Assembly (NCBI GenBank): GCA_020444545.1 | Contig: JAHLKT010000005.1 | Location: 62,001-126,000, forward strand | Length of the DNA: 64,000 nucleotides | Reading direction: 5' to 3' | From: Desulfarculaceae bacterium | Lineage (GTDB): Bacteria > Desulfobacterota > Desulfarculia > Desulfarculales > Desulfarculaceae | Shown here: piece by piece, positions 9,289 through 52,469 of the stretch | How positions within the stretch are numbered: the stretch's first letter is position 1 | Layout: every line of letters starts with the position of its first letter | Made by a program: the position numbers and the translations under genes | The notes under the pieces: model-generated | Told to the model about the DNA's origin: nothing | Seen by the model: only the letters and a program-made list of their open reading frames with translations | The model's database searches: none

Positions 9289-10071
9289 CTAGCGCGTCAG
9301 TTCCTTGAGCAGGTTGTCGCTGAGAGGCATGTCCAGGGCGGGGGGCACGTCGCCGGTGGCGGACCAGATGGGCGTTCCGTTGTTCATGAGGGCCAGGGCA
9401 GGGCGGCCGCCGGCGGTGTTGAACAACAGGCCGGTGCGGGGCTGCTGGTACATGAACAGGCCGGGCTTATCGCCTTTGACGGCCAACGAGACGGCGGGCT
9501 GGTTGTTGCTGTTCCAGATGCCCAGGACGGAGCCTTGGTTTTCACGATTGGTTAATGCAATAGCTGCCTTTCTGTTTGGTCGGAGCAGGGCGATGGAGGA
9601 GTCATCTCCCGAAACACTTATGTATGCTTTTGCGGAATTATTCTCGTCGTAAAGCCCCAATGAAGACGCTTTGTCAGGTGCATAAGCCAATACAAGACGA
9701 GGCTTACTTCTTTTACTGTTCATAATCCCAATGCTTGAAGATCCATCATCTGAAGATTGAAGGAATAAATTTATCGCTTCTTTTTTGTCATATAAAAAAA
9801 CGGATGGTCCTTTTGAAGCGCAGCCTAGCATAAGCCTGACTTTTCCTTTGTCATCCTTAATGAAAAATATAGGGAACCCATCGGGATCGAAGCCAAAACC
9901 GGCGCGTGGCTGATTGTGTTTGTCAACAATTACTATACTCCTCGCCACCAACCTATCTCTTGGTTGGCCGGAATCATCCTGCTTCGCAAAAACAACGCTA
10001 GAAAAGTAATCTCCACCTAACCCAGAGAGAAAGCAAACGAAAACTAGAGCCAAAGTGTGCCATCGGGACAT
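9289..10071 (-). CDS. Exported solenoid-like protein, array copy 1
   Basis: 260 aa. It has an N-terminal hydrophobic signal or anchor (HTLALVFVCFLSGLGGDYF). Beta-type repeats of about 20-24 residues follow, with the pattern D-x-x-x-x-P-R-A-x-x-G-F (SIVIVDKHNQPRAGFGFDP, KGKVRLMLGCASKGPSVFLY, KPRLVLAYAPD). The last ~85 residues (from about VLGIWNSNNQPAVS to LSDNLLKELTR) are almost identical to the other three array copies; the preceding ~150 are not. DNA for the variable part is clearly more AT-rich than the constant end. It is divergent from tape-measure-like copy 1. Unlike copies 2-4 it has no shared terminator downstream, so it marks the left edge of the array. A GGAGGGGG ribosome site precedes the ATG. 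Confidence 0.75.
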   Translation of the reverse strand: MSRWHTLALVFVCFLSGLGGDYFSSVVFAKQDDSGQPRDRLVARSIVIVDKHNQPRAGFGFDPDGFPIFFIKDDKGKVRLMLGCASKGPSVFLYDKKEAINLFLQSSDDGSSSIGIMNSKRSKPRLVLAYAPDKASSLGLYDENNSAKAYISVSGDDSSIALLRPNRKAAIALTNRENQGSVLGIWNSNNQPAVSLAVKGDKPGLFMYQQPRTGLLFNTAGGRPALALMNNGTPIWSATGDVPPALDMPLSDNLLKELTR

Positions 10072-10207
10072 AACCCCCTCCTTAATTTGTTATTTGAATT
10101 TGTTTACCATATTTCATTCGCGTTGGAAATAAATTGGCGAGATGCATCCTTTTGATGAGGTCGTTCTATGTGACAGAGTTTACGCCAACTCTATCGGAGG
10201 CATATGA

Positions 10208-10675
10208 ATGGCCGTTAATACGGGTTCTGAGATTGTCGTAGGAGTCAGGCTCGAAACCAACCGGACGAGTGTGGAACGAGTAGAAGCGGGACTCCTAGAT
10301 TTAACCACGTCGTTTAAAAAACAACTTGATAACGTATGGAAGACAACCGAGCGTGAATTCAGCGCGTTCGTGCAAGGCACGGCCAAGGACGCCTCCGATA
10401 CCTGGGACAAAACCACCAAGGAGATGAACAGCATCACCGGCAAGAGCCTGTGGGGCTCGGTGAAGGCTGTGTTTCAGGACGACATGGACCAGGTGGAGAC
10501 CATCTGGGACAACGCCTGGAACAGCATGATCGTCTCGGCCGACAAGGCCTGGGACGGGTTGTTGGTTATAGTTAGACAACGATTACAAAGGTTGCGGCGA
10601 AAGAGCAAAGGCCCCGAGGTTTTCCCCGGGGCCTTGGCTTTTGGCGGGGAACTTATTAGCGCGTCAGTTCCTTGA
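10208..10675 (+). CDS. Truncated tape-measure-like protein, array copy 1 (possible silent cassette)
   Basis: The open frame has a good ribosome site (CGGAGG before ATG). Residues 1-47 are copy-specific; residues of about 48-117 are the shared block in its A version (FSAFVQGTAKDASDTWDKTT) followed by the NSMI ending. Homology to the full-length gene at 14326 stops after the GGGACGG at about 10557. The remaining codons read through a conserved junction (TTGTTGGTTATAG) and a terminator into the end of the facing gene. The stop codon therefore lies beyond the terminator, so a transcript ending there would be non-stop. This favours a non-functional or donor cassette over a real short protein. Confidence 0.6.
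   Translation: MAVNTGSEIVVGVRLETNRTSVERVEAGLLDLTTSFKKQLDNVWKTTEREFSAFVQGTAKDASDTWDKTTKEMNSITGKSLWGSVKAVFQDDMDQVETIWDNAWNSMIVSADKAWDGLLVIVRQRLQRLRRKSKGPEVFPGALAFGGELISASVP
10608..10635. terminator. Shared terminator hairpin, array copy 1
   Basis: An AAGGCCCC...GGGGCCTT stem between facing genes, with GGCTTTT following. It can serve both strands. The same hairpin recurs at 11990 and 13357. Confidence 0.75.
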
Positions 10676-11432
10676 GCAGGTCGTCGCTGAGAGGCATGTC
10701 CGGGGCGGCGGGGGTGTCGCCGGTGGCGGACCAGATGGGGGTGCCGTTGTTCATGAGGGCCAGGGCGGGGCGGCCGCCGGCGGTGTTGAACAGCAGGCCG
10801 GTGCGGGGCTGCTGGTACATGAACAGGCCGGGTTTGTCGCCCTTCACGGCCAGGGACACGGCGGGCTGGTTGTTGCTGTTCCAGATGCCCAGGATGGAAC
10901 CCTCGCCTTTGCGGTTGAGCATGGCGATGGCGGGCTTTTTGTCTTTGTCGAGGAGGGTGACGGAAGGGTTGCCGTGCTGAGTAGCAATAAATATTTTGGG
11001 GTTTTTATTCTCATCAAAAAGGCTGATAGAGGCACCTTTGTTCGGAAGGTATGATAGCCCAAGCCGGTGCTGATTTCTGCCTGCCATCAACCCTATGGAT
11101 GAACTTCCTCTGTCTTTGGCCGACAGAAATAATTGCATCTCTTCATTTTGGTCGCGAAATACCATCAAGGGACCATTTTCCGTTAAGGCCCAGTAGGCTC
11201 TCACTTTGCCATTTTTATCTGCCAAATAAATGAATGGTTGGTCATCTTCAAAGCCGAGGCCAATGCGAGATTTGCCGGAGTTATCAAGAATATTAATACT
11301 ACTTGTCGTGATAGTATCAGGCTGGGTGTTCGCATAAACTATCTTTTGGCTAAATAGACCGCCTATGGCCCCTCCGATTATCCCCGAAATGCACATTGCC
11401 GAGACTAATAAGACAGTGTTTATTCTGCTCAC
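10656..11432 (-). CDS. Exported solenoid-like protein, array copy 2
   Basis: 258 aa with a GTG start. The signal or anchor segment is TVLLVSAMCISGIIGGAIGG. Short beta repeats follow (DNSGKSRIGLGFEDDQPFIY, AYWALTENGPLMVFRDQNEE, QHRLGLSYLPNKGASISLFD). From GNPSVTLLDKD to the C-terminus (about 105 residues, DNA 10656-10976) it matches copies 3 and 4 closely; upstream of that the sequence is its own. The RAGFGF-type repeat pattern and the DGP/NGPL turns suggest a right-handed beta-solenoid outside the cytoplasmic membrane. Function unknown. It is divergent from tape-measure-like copy 2. Confidence 0.75.
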   Translation of the reverse strand: MSRINTVLLVSAMCISGIIGGAIGGLFSQKIVYANTQPDTITTSSINILDNSGKSRIGLGFEDDQPFIYLADKNGKVRAYWALTENGPLMVFRDQNEEMQLFLSAKDRGSSSIGLMAGRNQHRLGLSYLPNKGASISLFDENKNPKIFIATQHGNPSVTLLDKDKKPAIAMLNRKGEGSILGIWNSNNQPAVSLAVKGDKPGLFMYQQPRTGLLFNTAGGRPALALMNNGTPIWSATGDTPAAPDMPLSDDLLKELTR

Positions 11433-11592
11433 TTTTCCCCTCGTATTAAATTAGTTATGGGTAACGTAGCCAATTTCATAGCATATTTATTATTTTTTTA
11501 ACAATGGAAATAATTTGGAGATTGCTTCCTCGCTAGGCTCCGAGTGCCCAAGTATTTAATCGGGGTACGAACTAAGCATAGGAGGAGCCCAA

Positions 11593-12033
11593 ATGGCAGG
11601 CGGATCAAGTGTGGCACTACTTGAGGTTGGTATTCGGTTGGACCCTAGCAGCGTGCAGGAGCTTGATAGTGCGATAACGGAGGTATACGGCTCAATTAAA
11701 CAAAAATTCGACCTTATCTCCAGCGCTACCTGGGACGGGTTCAAGGATTATTCTCGAGACACGTCCAAGGACGTGACCAAGACCTGGGAAAGCACCACCA
11801 AGGACATGAAGAACCTCACCGCCAAGTCGCTGTGGGGCACGGTGTCGGCCTGGTTCGATGACGACATGGACCAGGTGGAGAACATCTGGGACAACGCCTG
11901 GCAGGGCATGCTGGGTAAGGCTGACACCCTCTGGGAAGGGTTGTTGGTTATAGTTAGGCGAAGATTACAAAGGTTGCGGCGAAAGAGCAAAGGCCCCGAG
12001 GTTTTCCCCGGGGCCTTGGCTTTTGGCGGGTAA
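11593..12033 (+). CDS. Truncated tape-measure-like protein, array copy 2 (possible silent cassette)
   Basis: The ATG is preceded by AGGAGGAG. Residues 1-45 are copy-specific (SSVALLEVGIRLDPSSVQEL). The next block is the B version (WDGFKDYSRDTSKDVTKTWE), nearly identical to the full-length gene at 14326, followed by the QGML ending shared with copy 3 instead of the NSMI ending of the full-length gene. It breaks off at the same TTGTTGGTTATAG junction as copies 1 and 3, and its stop again lies past the terminator. Confidence 0.6.
   Translation: MAGGSSVALLEVGIRLDPSSVQELDSAITEVYGSIKQKFDLISSATWDGFKDYSRDTSKDVTKTWESTTKDMKNLTAKSLWGTVSAWFDDDMDQVENIWDNAWQGMLGKADTLWEGLLVIVRRRLQRLRRKSKGPEVFPGALAFGG
11990..12017. 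terminator. Shared terminator hairpin, array copy 2
   Basis: The same AAGGCCCC...GGGGCCTT stem as at 10608, between tape-measure-like copy 2 and exported copy 3. Confidence 0.75.
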
Positions 12034-12037
12034 CTTG

Positions 12038-12817
12038 TTAGCGCGTCAGTTCGTTGAGCAGGTCGTCGCTGAGAGGCATGTCCAGGGCGGGGGGAGTGTC
12101 GCCGGTGGCGGACCAGATGGGGGTGCCGTTGTTCATGAGGGCCAGGGCAGGGCGGCCGCCGGCGGTGTTGAACAACAGGCCGGTGCGGGGCTGCTGGTAC
12201 ATGAACAGGCCGGGCTTATCGCCTTTGACGGCCAACGAGACGGCGGGCTCGTTGTTGCTGTTCCAGATGCCCAGGATGGAGCCCTCGCCCTTGCGATTGA
12301 GCATGGCGATGGCGGGCTTTTTGTCCTGGTCGAGGAGAGTGACCGAGGGGTTGCCGTGAGTAACAGATATCACGGCTTTGCCAACGTTGTTTTCATCGAA
12401 TAGGCCGATGGTTGGGCCTTGGTTAGGAGAGTAGGCCATCATTAGTCTTGGTTTTGTGCCATTACTCGTTAGGCCAAATGACGAACTGCCGTCATTTGAC
12501 GCTTCCAAAGCTAAAACAATATTACCCTTGCTATCATTCATGCCCAAAATAGGCCCACTAGGCGTGCAGGCTAAGTATGCCCTGGTTTTGCCTTGAGTGT
12601 CTTTTAAAAATATGGCTGGATTCTTGTCCTTATCAAAACTAATCCCTGCACGTGGCCTATTGTTTTCATCGACCAGGAAAATGCTATGCGCCACAATCTT
12701 TTCAGGATAATGAATTGTATCGGCTTTTGTTATTGGTGTTTGCCCGAATAAATAGGTGCCAACTAAACTTGTAAGGAGAGAAACAGCAATAAGGAAAGAT
12801 AGCTTGAGTATTTTCAT
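12038..12817 (-). CDS. Exported solenoid-like protein, array copy 3
   Basis: 259 aa. Signal or anchor LSFLIAVSLLTSLVGTYLFG, then repeats such as DENNRPRAGISFDKDKNPAI, GKTRAYLACTPSGPILGMND and TKPRLMMAYSPNQGPTIGLF. The C-terminal 320 bases (12038-12357) differ from copy 4 (13405-13724) at only one base by my reading, changing Lys to Asn near the end (LLNELTR). Identity stops abruptly at GTTGCCGT, and the variable core is AT-rich. Such a sharp boundary points to gene conversion or recent duplication of the constant end. Confidence 0.75.
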   Translation of the reverse strand: MKILKLSFLIAVSLLTSLVGTYLFGQTPITKADTIHYPEKIVAHSIFLVDENNRPRAGISFDKDKNPAIFLKDTQGKTRAYLACTPSGPILGMNDSKGNIVLALEASNDGSSSFGLTSNGTKPRLMMAYSPNQGPTIGLFDENNVGKAVISVTHGNPSVTLLDQDKKPAIAMLNRKGEGSILGIWNSNNEPAVSLAVKGDKPGLFMYQQPRTGLLFNTAGGRPALALMNNGTPIWSATGDTPPALDMPLSDDLLNELTR

Positions 12818-12956
12818 TGGATTCCCCCTTGCTAAATAAGTTCTTTAAAATAAAAATACCACAAATTATTGCATAAGGAAATTAATTTGTGAGCAATGTC
12901 CATGGCAGTGCGCCAAATTATGTGATTACCATTGGTCGCATAAAGGAGGTGATGTC

Positions 12957-13424
12957 ATGTCCACAAAGATAACTAGCGAATGGGGAATCGAGGTGGCCCC
13001 CTCTGTTGTTAAGCGCGAACTGGATAAGGCTAAGGAAGAATTGAATTCTATTCCGAAAGTACTCCAGCAAGAGTTTGAACGCATCACAAAGATCACCCAA
13101 CGCGAATTCAGCGCGTTCGTGCAAGGCACGGCCAAGGACGCGTCCGATACCTGGGACAAGACCACCAAGGAGATGAACAGCATCACCGGCAAGAGCCTGT
13201 GGGGCTCGGTGAAGGCTGTGTTTCAGGACGACATGGACCAGGTGGAGGACATCTGGGAAGACGCCTGGCAGGGCATGCTGGGCAAGGCTGACACCCTCTG
13301 GGACGGGTTGTTGGTTATAGTTAGGCGACGATTACAAAGGTCGCTGCGAACGAGCCAAGGCCCCGAGGTTTTCCCCGGGGCCTTGGCTTTTGGCGAGATG
13401 CTTTTTAGCGCGTCAGTTCCTTGA
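12957..13424 (+). CDS. Truncated tape-measure-like protein, array copy 3 (possible silent cassette)
   Basis: A strong AAGGAGG site lies before the ATG. Residues 1-48 are copy-specific (SEWGIEVAPSVVKRELDKAK). The shared block is the A version, as in copy 1, but the ending is QGML as in copy 2, so this copy is a mosaic. It stops matching the full-length gene at the same junction, with the stop codon beyond the terminator. Confidence 0.6.
   Translation: MSTKITSEWGIEVAPSVVKRELDKAKEELNSIPKVLQQEFERITKITQREFSAFVQGTAKDASDTWDKTTKEMNSITGKSLWGSVKAVFQDDMDQVEDIWEDAWQGMLGKADTLWDGLLVIVRRRLQRSLRTSQGPEVFPGALAFGEMLFSASVP
13357..13384. terminator. Shared terminator hairpin, array copy 3
   Basis: The same AAGGCCCC...GGGGCCTT stem as at 10608 and 11990. 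Thirteen bases upstream is a smaller hairpin, GCGAC/GTCGC (13325-13344). Confidence 0.75.
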
Positions 13425-14181
13425 GCAGGTCGTCGCTGAGAGGCATGTCCAGGGCGGGGGGAGTGTCGCCGGTGGCGGACCAGATGGGGGTGCCGTTGTT
13501 CATGAGGGCCAGGGCAGGGCGGCCGCCGGCGGTGTTGAACAACAGGCCGGTGCGGGGCTGCTGGTACATGAACAGGCCGGGCTTATCGCCTTTGACGGCC
13601 AACGAGACGGCGGGCTCGTTGTTGCTGTTCCAGATGCCCAGGATGGAGCCCTCGCCCTTGCGATTGAGCATGGCGATGGCGGGCTTTTTGTCCTGGTCGA
13701 GGAGAGTGACCGAGGGGTTGCCGTTGCCTACCGCTACAAAGATTTTTACCTTGCTCTCGTTGTCGAACAAGCTGATTGAGGGCCCTTTGTCGGGTAGATG
13801 GCTTAAAAATAGCCTTGCCTTGTTTCTGCCCGCGTAGAGACCAATTGTCGATTTACCTTCGTTGTCGGAACTGATCATCATTGCAGGCTCGTTGTTGTCA
13901 TGCCTAAAAACGAGAAGAGGTCCTTTATCATTCATTCCAATATACGCTCTGACCACATCTTTTTTGTCATTAAAAAACAAAACAGGGCCATCCTGCGCAA
14001 AAGATAGTCCACCCCTGATATTACCGTCCTTGTCAACCAGTTCAAAACTGCTTGCGGTCAATTTGTTCGGGCGCTGGTTTCCGTAGGCAGTATTTACAAA
14101 AAAGCGAGCTGAAATCGCTCCACCAAAACACCCTGAAATCACAAAAATGATAGTAAAAAAAATGAATTGAAGCCTGGTCAT
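13405..14181 (-). CDS. Exported solenoid-like protein, array copy 4
   Basis: 258 aa from the ATG at 14181, chosen because GGGGGAA lies about 7 bases before it; an ATG at 14205 would add eight polar residues. The signal or anchor is LQFIFFTIIFVISGCFGGAI. A Cys followed by GG could be a lipidation site, but the match is weak. Repeats include DKDGNIRGGLSFAQDGPVLF and VRAYIGMNDKGPLLVFRHD. It shares the constant C-terminal end with copies 2 and 3. This copy is paired divergently with the only full-length tape-measure-like gene, so it occupies the presumed active position. Confidence 0.75.
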   Translation of the reverse strand: MTRLQFIFFTIIFVISGCFGGAISARFFVNTAYGNQRPNKLTASSFELVDKDGNIRGGLSFAQDGPVLFFNDKKDVVRAYIGMNDKGPLLVFRHDNNEPAMMISSDNEGKSTIGLYAGRNKARLFLSHLPDKGPSISLFDNESKVKIFVAVGNGNPSVTLLDQDKKPAIAMLNRKGEGSILGIWNSNNEPAVSLAVKGDKPGLFMYQQPRTGLLFNTAGGRPALALMNNGTPIWSATGDTPPALDMPLSDDLLKELTR

Positions 14182-14325
14182 GATGTTCCCCCTTTTGGAT
14201 TGCATATTAATTATGGGATAAAAGTTTATAACATATTTCCGCGAAGCACATCAATGAAACAGGTTGGTAGTTAAAAAACAAATCATCGCGTAAAAGAAAG
14301 GAGACTTTTTACGTGGAGGATAGTT

Positions 14326-16260
14326 ATGTCCACTGATGCAACTAAGATAGTCGGGAAATTGGTGTTAGAAACGGACCAAGCCAGTGTAGATCGCACAGCA
14401 AAAGAAATAAGTTCTGTATTTACTTGGATGAAACAAGAGTTCGACCTCTTCTCGAATTCTACCTGGGACGGGTTCAAGGACTACTCCCGGGACACCTCCA
14501 AGGACGTGACCAAGACCTGGGAAAGCACCACCAAGGACATGAAGAACCTCACCGCCAAGTCGCTGTGGGGCACGGTGTCGGCCTGGTTCGATGACGACAT
14601 GCACCAGGTGGAGAACATCTGGGACAACGCCTGGAACAGCATGATCGGTTCGGCCGACAAAGCCTGGGACGGCTTCCTTAACCGCGCCGTGAACCGGGCC
14701 TGGTCGGGCGTGGGCGGCATCTTCGACAAGGTGGTAATGGACCCAGCCAGCGACTGGCTGAGCGGCGCGCTGGGGCTTTCCGGTTCCAGCATTCACTTTA
14801 ACGACAAGATGGAGGACTTTTTCGCGGCCGTGGAAATGGGCGACTCCTATTGGGAGGCCCTGAATACGGCCGACATCCTCCCCACCGGCGGAATCACCAA
14901 GGCGATTGCGAGTTGGTTCGGTGGAAGCGAACCCGCCGTGGCCGAGACCGTCTCCGAAGCCCTGGCCAACAGCGCCTCCCTGTTCGACTTTGGCAGCCAG
15001 GCCAGCCTGTATGGCACGGAGGTAGTCTCCGAATCCATGGCCAACAGCGCCGCCTTGTTCGACTTCGGCAGCCAGCCCAGCCTGGGCAGCGGGCTTGGCG
15101 CGGGCCTGGCCACGCCCTTGGGGGCCTTCGGGTTGGCCCTGGCGCCGGGCATGGTGGGCATGCTGTTCCACGATGAGATCAGCGGCCTGCTGGGCATGGA
15201 TACCGACCCCATGACCCCGGAGGAGGCCATAAGCAACTGGCAGGGCCAGGAGAACTTCCTGGCCGGGCTCAGCGGCAACATAGCCGGGGCGGGCCAGGAA
15301 TGGGCCGAGCTGGCGGGCACCCAGTTCGGGCTGTTCGGCCAGGCGGCCCAGGAGGCGGCCGAGGATTTGGAGCGCCTGCGGACCGTGGCCGGCTACACCC
15401 AAGAGCAGCTCGACGGGGTGGTGGCCTCGCTGGACCCCCTGAGCCAGGAGCTGGTGACCAGCGGGCAGGCGGCCAACACCCTGGAGGACGAGGTGCGCCA
15501 GCTGGCCGTGGAGATCCACGCGGCGGCCAACAGCATGGCCCTGACCGACCAGGCCACGATCCAGTTCAACGGGCGCATCGACGACTTGGCCGGGCGGCTG
15601 GGGCTCTCGGGGGACGCGGCCCAGGAGTTCAAGAGCGCGCTCTACGGCCTGGCCGACGGCTTCAGCGCGGGGGGCGAGGAGGCGGCGGGCTTCGAGGCGG
15701 CCCTGGACGCCTTCACCCAGGGCACCCTGGCCTCGCTGACCTCGGGGGCCGAGGGCTCCCGCGAGGCCATCCAGGGGCTCATCAGCTCCATGAAAGGGGT
15801 GTCCGGGGCCTCGGGCATCAGCGTGGAGGACATGGGCGACGGCACCACCCGCTTCACGGCAATGGACTACGCCTCGGGCGGCACGGTGGACAACCTGGGC
15901 CTGTACCACGCCGGGAGCGGGGGCAACGCGGCCTATGGCTATTACCACTCCGGCGGGCTGGTGGCGGGCTGGCCCAAGGCCCACGCCGGGGCCCTGATCA
16001 GCTCCCTGGCCCGCGACGAGGTACCCCTCGTGGCCCGGCGGGGGGAGTACGTGGTGCGCGCCGAGGCGGTGAACGCGGCCACCCTGCCGGCGCTCAAGGC
16101 CCTGAACCAGGGCGGGGGCATGGCCGGGGGGGACATGCAGGTGAACTTCACCATCAACCTCAACGGCAACCTCATGGGCAACGACGACCAGATCGAGGAC
16201 ATGGTGCGGCTCATCGAGAGCCGGCTGCGGCAGCTGAAAAGCAGCCGTTGGGGTGCCTAG
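14326..16260 (+). CDS. Full-length tape-measure-like protein
   Basis: 644 aa. Residues 1-45 are the variable N-terminus. About 46-116 are the B-version block shared with the truncated copies, ending NSMI. About 117-290 contain duplicated ASLFDFGSQ / AALFDFGSQ segments and a Gly/Ala-rich hydrophobic stretch (LGAFGLALAPGMVGMLF). About 330-500 are alpha-helical, coiled-coil-like and Ala-rich. The C-terminus has the usual ending of phage tail tape-measure proteins: YYHSGGLVAGW, then VPLVARRGEYVVRAEAV around residue 573, a Gly-rich linker and a VNFTINLNGN strand. No tail, capsid or terminase genes are nearby. It could be a domesticated tail gene, or part of a tail-like structure encoded elsewhere. 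The first 140 bases are AT-rich; the rest match the genome. Confidence 0.75.
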   Translation: MSTDATKIVGKLVLETDQASVDRTAKEISSVFTWMKQEFDLFSNSTWDGFKDYSRDTSKDVTKTWESTTKDMKNLTAKSLWGTVSAWFDDDMHQVENIWDNAWNSMIGSADKAWDGFLNRAVNRAWSGVGGIFDKVVMDPASDWLSGALGLSGSSIHFNDKMEDFFAAVEMGDSYWEALNTADILPTGGITKAIASWFGGSEPAVAETVSEALANSASLFDFGSQASLYGTEVVSESMANSAALFDFGSQPSLGSGLGAGLATPLGAFGLALAPGMVGMLFHDEISGLLGMDTDPMTPEEAISNWQGQENFLAGLSGNIAGAGQEWAELAGTQFGLFGQAAQEAAEDLERLRTVAGYTQEQLDGVVASLDPLSQELVTSGQAANTLEDEVRQLAVEIHAAANSMALTDQATIQFNGRIDDLAGRLGLSGDAAQEFKSALYGLADGFSAGGEEAAGFEAALDAFTQGTLASLTSGAEGSREAIQGLISSMKGVSGASGISVEDMGDGTTRFTAMDYASGGTVDNLGLYHAGSGGNAAYGYYHSGGLVAGWPKAHAGALISSLARDEVPLVARRGEYVVRAEAVNAATLPALKALNQGGGMAGGDMQVNFTINLNGNLMGNDDQIEDMVRLIESRLRQLKSSRWGA

Positions 16261-51531: not shown

Positions 51532-52020
51532 TCAAGCCTCGCTGCCCAGCTCCCACTTCTTGCCGCCCAGCTCCAGGGCGAAGCCGTCGCCCGCTTCCAC
51601 GATCTTTTCGGCCAGCTGGTAATAGGCCTGGCGCAAAAAGCGCGCCGGAAAAGCGCCGTTCTTCACGGTGCAGTAGATGATCTCGTTGTCGCCCATGCGT
51701 AGGGTGGCCGGGTCCAGGGCCTCGCTGCTGCCGTCGTTCAGGCTGACGGTGGCGCCCTCGCCCTGGAACACCACCCGGTTCACCACGAAGAAGGTGTCGG
51801 CCACCTCCAGCTCGCAGCTTTTGCCGTCGATGGTCACCACGTAGTGCCCGTCCTCAAGGCGCACCGAGTCGTAGATCAGCTTGATGATGGTGGGGTGCAC
51901 CATGGGCCGCCCGGCCGAGGACATCTGGCCCTCGGGGCTCACCTGTATCTGACAGGGCGGGTAGATGCCAGTCCAGCCCTCGGGGATGTACTTGTTCAGG
52001 TCGGGTAGCTCGTCGCTCAC
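51532..52020 (-). CDS. DUF1285-like protein
   Basis: 162 aa from the GTG at 52020, which shares one base with the dtd stop (TAGTG). The pattern PPCQIQVSPEGQMSSAGRPM, then IIKLIYDSVRLEDGHYVVTI and a beta-rich second half resembles DUF1285 (WYYNGxPIxR type) but is divergent. An ORF continues upstream in frame, but that part overlaps dtd and is a shadow. Function unknown; it is translationally coupled to dtd. Confidence 0.65.
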   Translation of the reverse strand: MSDELPDLNKYIPEGWTGIYPPCQIQVSPEGQMSSAGRPMVHPTIIKLIYDSVRLEDGHYVVTIDGKSCELEVADTFFVVNRVVFQGEGATVSLNDGSSEALDPATLRMGDNEIIYCTVKNGAFPARFLRQAYYQLAEKIVEAGDGFALELGGKKWELGSEA

Positions 52021-52469
52021 TAGAACCTCTTTTCCGTGTCCACCAACAAGGTCACCGGCCCGGAGTTTACCAGGCTCACCTCCATCATGGCCCCGAACAC
52101 GCCGGTGGCGGTGGTGAGGCCCAGATGGTTCAGCTCGGCCACAAAGGCCTCGTACAGGGGCTCGGCCGCCTCGCCCCCGGCGGCGCGCACGAAAGACGGC
52201 CGCCGTCCCTTGGCGCAGTCGCCCCACAGGGTGAACTGGCTCACCACCAGCACCTCGCCGCCCGTGTCGCTCACCGACAGGTTGAGCTTGTCGTTGTCGT
52301 CGGGGAAGATGCGCAGGCCCGCAATCTTGTTGGCCAGCCAGGAGGCCTGCTCGGGCCCGTCCTCCTGGCTCACGCCCAGGAGCACCATGAGCCCCGGGCC
52401 GATGCTGCCCACGACCTGGCCCTCCACCTCCACCGAGGCGCGGCTTACTCTCTGAACCACCGCTCGCAT
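52020..52469 (-). CDS. dtd: D-aminoacyl-tRNA deacylase
   Basis: 149 aa, standard size. [20 protein letters not shown] begins the family. The catalytic motif is [19 protein letters not shown] (SQFTL) and the C-terminal [11 protein letters not shown] matches the cross-subunit GP motif region. It removes D-amino acids from tRNA. The ATG at 52467-52469 follows the larB stop by two bases, so the genes are coupled. Confidence 0.95.

Follow-up and report, generated by a model that had tools for sequence, protein, structure and literature searches.

Homogenised ends and divergent cores in a tandem array of paired exported-repeat and tape-measure-like genes in a Desulfarculaceae bacterium

We found that a Desulfarculaceae-like genome (G000; 4.38 Mb, 11 contigs) carries four tandem units in which a gene for an exported beta-repeat protein diverges from a gene for a tape-measure-like protein, and in which similar, GC-rich ends enclose divergent, AT-rich cores. 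Ends and cores of these units follow discordant trees, recombination breakpoints lie within the array, and a compositional boundary sets the cores apart. We put the chances at about even that the locus diversifies by homologous recombination, with the core acting as an exchangeable cassette from an old, trans-species pool.

The window, that is, the whole stretch of 64,000 nucleotides that was analysed, contains the units (U1 to U4, left to right; repeat families D1-D4) at positions 9289, 10656, 12038, and 13405, with spacings of 1367, 1382, and 1367 bp. In each unit, the exported gene is read from the minus strand, and the plus strand carries the beginning of the tape-measure-like gene, which is full length (644 aa) in the rightmost unit alone; the other three ORFs, in the orphan units U1 to U3, have 146-155 aa. 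An earlier note made from the DNA letters had described this arrangement at these positions with a single full-length gene, and ORF scans, repeat scans, and a windowed alignment bore out the arrangement and its coordinates.

The exported protein of U1 (260 aa; 9289-10071, minus strand) has its constant C-terminal end at ∼9289-9540 with the core above it, and the stub tape-measure-like ORF of the same unit (10208-10675, plus strand) consists of core residues 1 to ∼46, a block of type A, and linker read-through; the variable core as a whole spans 9541-10349. U2 comprises an exported protein of 258 aa (10656-11432, minus strand) and a stub ORF (11593-12033, plus strand) with a block of type B, on either side of the promoter region of a variable core at 10961-11732, the edges of which are approximate. 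In U3, the exported protein (259 aa; 12038-12817, minus strand) is paired with a stub ORF containing a type A block (12957-13424, plus strand), and the variable core lies at 12358-13098. The longest exported ORF of U4 extends to 14205, but a start at 14181, with an upstream AGGGGG ribosome site, is better and gives a protein of 258 aa (13405-14181, minus strand). The variable core of this unit (13725-14464) is the one currently on the full-length tape-measure-like gene (14326-16260, plus strand). A GC-rich, terminator-like hairpin is located between the convergent genes of U1 and U2 (10608-10635), and hairpins of the same kind lie between U2 and U3 (11990-12017) and between U3 and U4 (13357-13384, the same hairpin by sequence). 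In the three truncated ORFs, the final ∼30 residues come from reading through this linker, with the hairpin inside, and are not tape-measure sequence. A scan for sigma-70 promoters gave no clear promoter common to all four intergenic regions.

The exported protein begins with a signal-like sequence (by eye, the U1 signal peptide ends at VFA, before KQ). Its predicted structure is a chain of beta hairpins with a pLDDT of 73, and of >90 across much of the middle, and the best matches among solved structures were OspA mutants, followed by Rhs and MORN sheets, all at low identity. 'Solenoid-like', as the gene had been called, is therefore a loose term for a predicted hairpin chain closest to OspA, MORN, and Rhs-type sheets. 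There was no confident match to the protein in Pfam, NCBIfam, or PADLOC. We rejected a phage-carried exported gene, since neither 50,697 phage records nor viral contigs gave a match, as well as a known defence system (no PADLOC match) and a toxin/immunity pair (no toxin or immunity domain in Pfam or NCBIfam). Copies of the family do decay: a second exported repeat gene in the relative G005 (L061:8172-8837) is broken by in-frame stops.

The tape-measure-like protein has no signal peptide and a long helical middle; the predicted structure (pLDDT 41) was too poor to use. It weakly matches the tape-measure families PHROG 10030 and 167 (∼1e-7), and its C-terminal motif, DEVP...RRGEYV, is common to phage tape measures and was also found in viral contigs. 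Residues 241-600 are 40% identical to a 1270-aa tape measure in G005 (L070:6176-9988), which matches Pfam TMP_3 and Tape_meas_lam_C. The ORFs around the G005 gene look phage-like by eye. These similarities suggest descent from, or kinship with, phage tape-measure proteins, from which the protein differs in its size of 644 aa and in standing alone among genes described as housekeeping (dnaX-ybaB-recR and genes for MBL-fold, DedA, and DsbD-like proteins), with no tail or other phage genes beside the array. A prophage or tailocin remnant was rejected because there are no adjoining phage genes, and in other genera the tape-measure-like gene likewise occurs in non-phage settings. In the collection of papers searched, none linked Desulfarculaceae and tape measure. 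The full-length gene also contains an imperfect 60-nt direct repeat (14950-15084; spacing 75 bp, 90% identity) that encodes two VSE(A/S)(L/M)ANSA(S/A)LFDFGSQ(A/P)SL motifs.

Windowed alignment of the units showed that the C-terminal end of the exported gene is 88-100% identical, with U1 dropping earlier near the edge. Identity falls to ∼30-60% across the core, which covers the N-terminal two thirds of the exported gene, the promoter region, and the first ∼46 tape-measure-like codons, and is then high again. The constant ends of U3 (12054-12357) and U4 (13421-13724) match over 304 bp without a single difference, and the tape-measure blocks of U2 and U4 share an exact match of 105 bp. At the sequence level, such flanks exclude chance as the source of the likeness between units. 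The pattern proposed before this work, in which homogenised flanks enclose unique cores with the promoter region and the N-termini of both proteins, was borne out by the alignment and by site patterns. The claim that the tape-measure block (residue ∼46-117) is near-identical held within two types, U1/U3 and U2/U4 (94-96% amino acid identity), and failed across all four units, as the types share only ∼50%. In the right-hand flank, U1 and U3 are only ∼82% identical to U4 at the DNA level, hence only U2 has good homology to U4 on both sides. At fourfold sites, the exported constant ends are 86-100% identical among the G000 units and 72-81% identical to those of the sister species G001, whereas sites in the exported core (residues 37-150) are saturated, with mostly 5-41% identity. 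The likeness of the ends at these sites indicates that they are kept alike through recombination, and not solely by protein conservation.

Site patterns in the tape-measure block point in the same direction. Thirty-eight informative sites support the pairs U1/U3 and U2/U4, and 11 incompatible sites support U1/U4 and U2/U3. Nearly all of the 11 lie after the 38, and so few changes of pattern gave a permutation p of ∼1e-5, placing a recombination switch near the 3' end of the block. The sequences thus record recombination between units inside the array. Paralogues are also closer within than between species, which together with the incompatible sites is the signature of a tandem array homogenised by recombination. 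We then compared constant-end and core protein trees built from 14 exported proteins of a single genus, representing six species. The four G000 copies form one group in the constant-end tree (support 96/93), but for the cores such a group is rejected (AU p=5e-9, or p 0.003 with the signal region left out). Similarly, four tandem copies in G006 fall together in the constant-end tree, and their group is rejected in the core tree (p 7e-4). The U2 core is closest to, and pairs with, the core on the full-length gene of G001 (92/94), a pairing that is rejected when forced in the constant-end tree (p 3e-5). G000 and G001, the two sequenced species with orphan units, have different core classes on their full-length genes. 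The earlier note had named agreement between flank and core trees beforehand as the mark of simple old duplication; such agreement was absent, with constant ends grouping by species and cores not. In no pair of genomes did we find one core, at high identity, joined to different partners, and thus no recent swap was caught. In G002, the assembly breaks inside the tape-measure constant block, at the end of L057 and the start of L058 (contigs C13 and C61), with an exact overlap of 91 bp. Breaks of this kind would be expected if the block joins more than one core; they hint at alternative paths and prove nothing.

Could an old tandem duplication, with conversion limited to the conserved ends, cores that were never swapped, and stubs that are leftovers of duplication, account for these data? 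We regard this as a real possibility, though not one that we would expect to be right. Conversion of the ends is clear and could on its own make core and end trees disagree; old duplicates with differing losses in G000 and G001 would also yield the match of the U2 core, and the core classes could be old paralogues with differential survival. With pN/pS values of 0.4-1.4, several of them near 1, the stubs appear to be under little constraint, as leftovers would be. However, the three G000 orphan units have one exact truncation joint and a linker in common and hence go back to a single truncated ancestor, although silent sites in their cores are saturated. This requires either later replacement of the cores or conversion that overwrote the whole linker and the ends. 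Moreover, core composition is unlike that of the genome in every species, which is unexpected for plain vertical paralogues. On this sequence evidence, recombination that involves the cores is better supported than simple old duplication, and duplication alone appears insufficient. The G001 orphan is cut at a different point from the G000 stubs, with a similar hairpin after each, suggesting that stubs arose more than once. G004-G006 have tandem exported genes and no stubs at all, hence the exported copies do not need stubs.

The cores differ sharply from their flanks in composition, with a third-position GC content of 28-53% compared with 82-96%. In eight genomes with the pair, GC3 is 32-56% over the first 50 codons of the tape-measure-like gene and 80-93% over the remainder, and the edges of the dip fall at similar protein positions in the relatives. 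Among 50 other genes of the window, the first 50 codons have a mean GC3 of 87% and a minimum of 54%; this minimum, the strongest other N-terminal dip, belongs to a gene without Pfam match (51532-52227, minus strand). The tape-measure-like gene of G016, which lacks a facing repeat gene, has no dip (94% in the first 50 codons), nor does a lipoprotein gene facing a related repeat gene on contig C3 of G000, tying the dip to the pair of exported and tape-measure-like genes. Its occurrence at the same place in eight genomes would also fit a reading without cassettes, in which the surroundings of the common promoter mutate or are regulated under a regime of their own and change fast locally. We consider this unlikely: fourfold sites in the core are near even and strand-symmetric (A27 C26 G19 T29), unlike what a deaminase-like bias would leave; at the C3 copy, the lipoprotein gene that faces the promoter lacks the dip; and core classes are common to different species. 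The same symmetry leaves strand-biased, deaminase-like hypermutation unsupported as a source of the AT-rich core. Import and circulation of cassettes is the best explanation for a foreign-looking core with fixed edges; our searches found no donor pool for the AT-rich cores.

We next asked how widely the pair occurs. A profile of the tape-measure-like protein (E <= 1e-12) matched only within Desulfarculaceae, in four of 148 genomes of the phylum, and the exported family is also present elsewhere in the phylum, in genomes without a tape-measure-like match. Divergent pairs were identified in eight further genomes (G001, G002, G004, G005, G006, G009, G010, and G015). Judging by these matches, the divergent pair is a module restricted to Desulfarculaceae and present in several of its genera. 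In G000 as in G001, recR and DedA flank the array. The tape-measure-like gene of G002 and G005-G007 follows paaK-like, PGK-like (both named by eye), and MBL-fold lipoprotein genes, and G004 has the same neighbours on the other side. At the corresponding locus outside the array in G000 (contig C3, L072:4739-6964), lipoprotein and repeat genes are kept without a tape-measure-like gene, and the MBL-fold lipoprotein faces a 345-aa exported repeat protein; in relatives, the tape-measure-like gene lies between the two.

If cores are exchanged, the cassette would reach from codon ∼46 of the tape-measure-like gene back across the common promoter region and through the N-terminal two thirds of its exported partner. 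Old, divergent, AT-rich versions would circulate and be inserted and exchanged via the constant GC-rich ends, and these ends would be kept alike within each genome through gene conversion or unequal crossing over. The three orphan units would be spare cassettes, each an expressible exported gene with a tape-measure-like stub, and recombination with the rightmost unit would give the full-length gene a different core. An upstream core could arrive there by deletion between matching blocks, at the loss of intervening units, or by gene conversion without such loss; U2 would be the best donor on both sides. We infer that whole cores are exchanged through the flanks.

The earlier note had proposed a programmed switch within the strain, akin to silent-cassette antigenic or phase variation. 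Its layout of one full-length and several partial copies resembles vls, where a complete locus lies beside an array of partial homologues with recombining sequence, and the best donors offer 105 bp to 304 bp of exact homology. Donors in vls are silent cassettes that match the centre of the expressed gene at ∼90% identity (PMC11499132), whereas here cores are ∼30-60% identical, two divergent genes would change together, and the exported genes of the orphan units carry their own start, ribosome site, and signal sequence. The donors therefore do not look silent, and all four exported genes appear expressible. In the right-hand flank, U1 and U3 reach only ∼82% identity to U4, G004-G006 lack stubs, and no recombinase was seen among the identified, housekeeping neighbours (dnaX-ybaB-recR, MBL-fold, DedA). 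A programmed switch is hence very unlikely.

Parallels also exist with orphan cdiA-CT/cdiI and rhs-CT/rhsI modules, in which a variable C-terminal toxin is followed by a downstream immunity gene (PMC3150448). As in those systems, a full-length gene is accompanied by partial copies, each with its own partner gene, and modules occur on full-length genes in other species, with exchange between systems. Here, however, it is the N-terminus of the tape-measure-like gene that varies, together with a divergent exported partner, and Pfam, NCBIfam, and PADLOC gave no match to a C-terminal toxin domain or a CdiA/Rhs core. By analogy, one might guess at matched recognition between neighbouring cells. The pairing itself may have a functional precedent in Ltp of phage TP-J34, a lipoprotein that mediates superinfection exclusion by targeting the tape-measure protein of the incoming phage (PMC3952083); as in the present pair, an exported repeat protein and a tape-measure protein are involved, but both partners here are chromosomal neighbours.

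We infer mutual recognition between the two variable N-termini, or recognition of a partner common to both. Distances between exported cores and between tape-measure cores were correlated with r=0.31 (p=0.13) for six units of the two array species and with r 0.42 (p 0.006) for ten units, the latter confounded by species, weakly suggesting linkage between the two variable ends. The role could only be guessed at as envelope recognition, for example phage exclusion, as exported repeat proteins are known to act on tape-measure proteins in superinfection exclusion (PMC3952083), or self/non-self matching. We would entertain only tentatively, as rather doubtful, that a domesticated tape measure and its exported partner are jointly re-specified by one cassette swap, with spare cassettes alongside.

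Should the cores indeed be exchangeable cassettes, the co-variation of two interacting proteins would be secured by physical layout, as both variable ends face each other across the promoter and would travel as one block. A phage tail component known mainly from virions would then be central to a host variation system, and the Desulfarculaceae pairs would offer a direct test of recognition between exported repeat proteins and tape measures outside phages.
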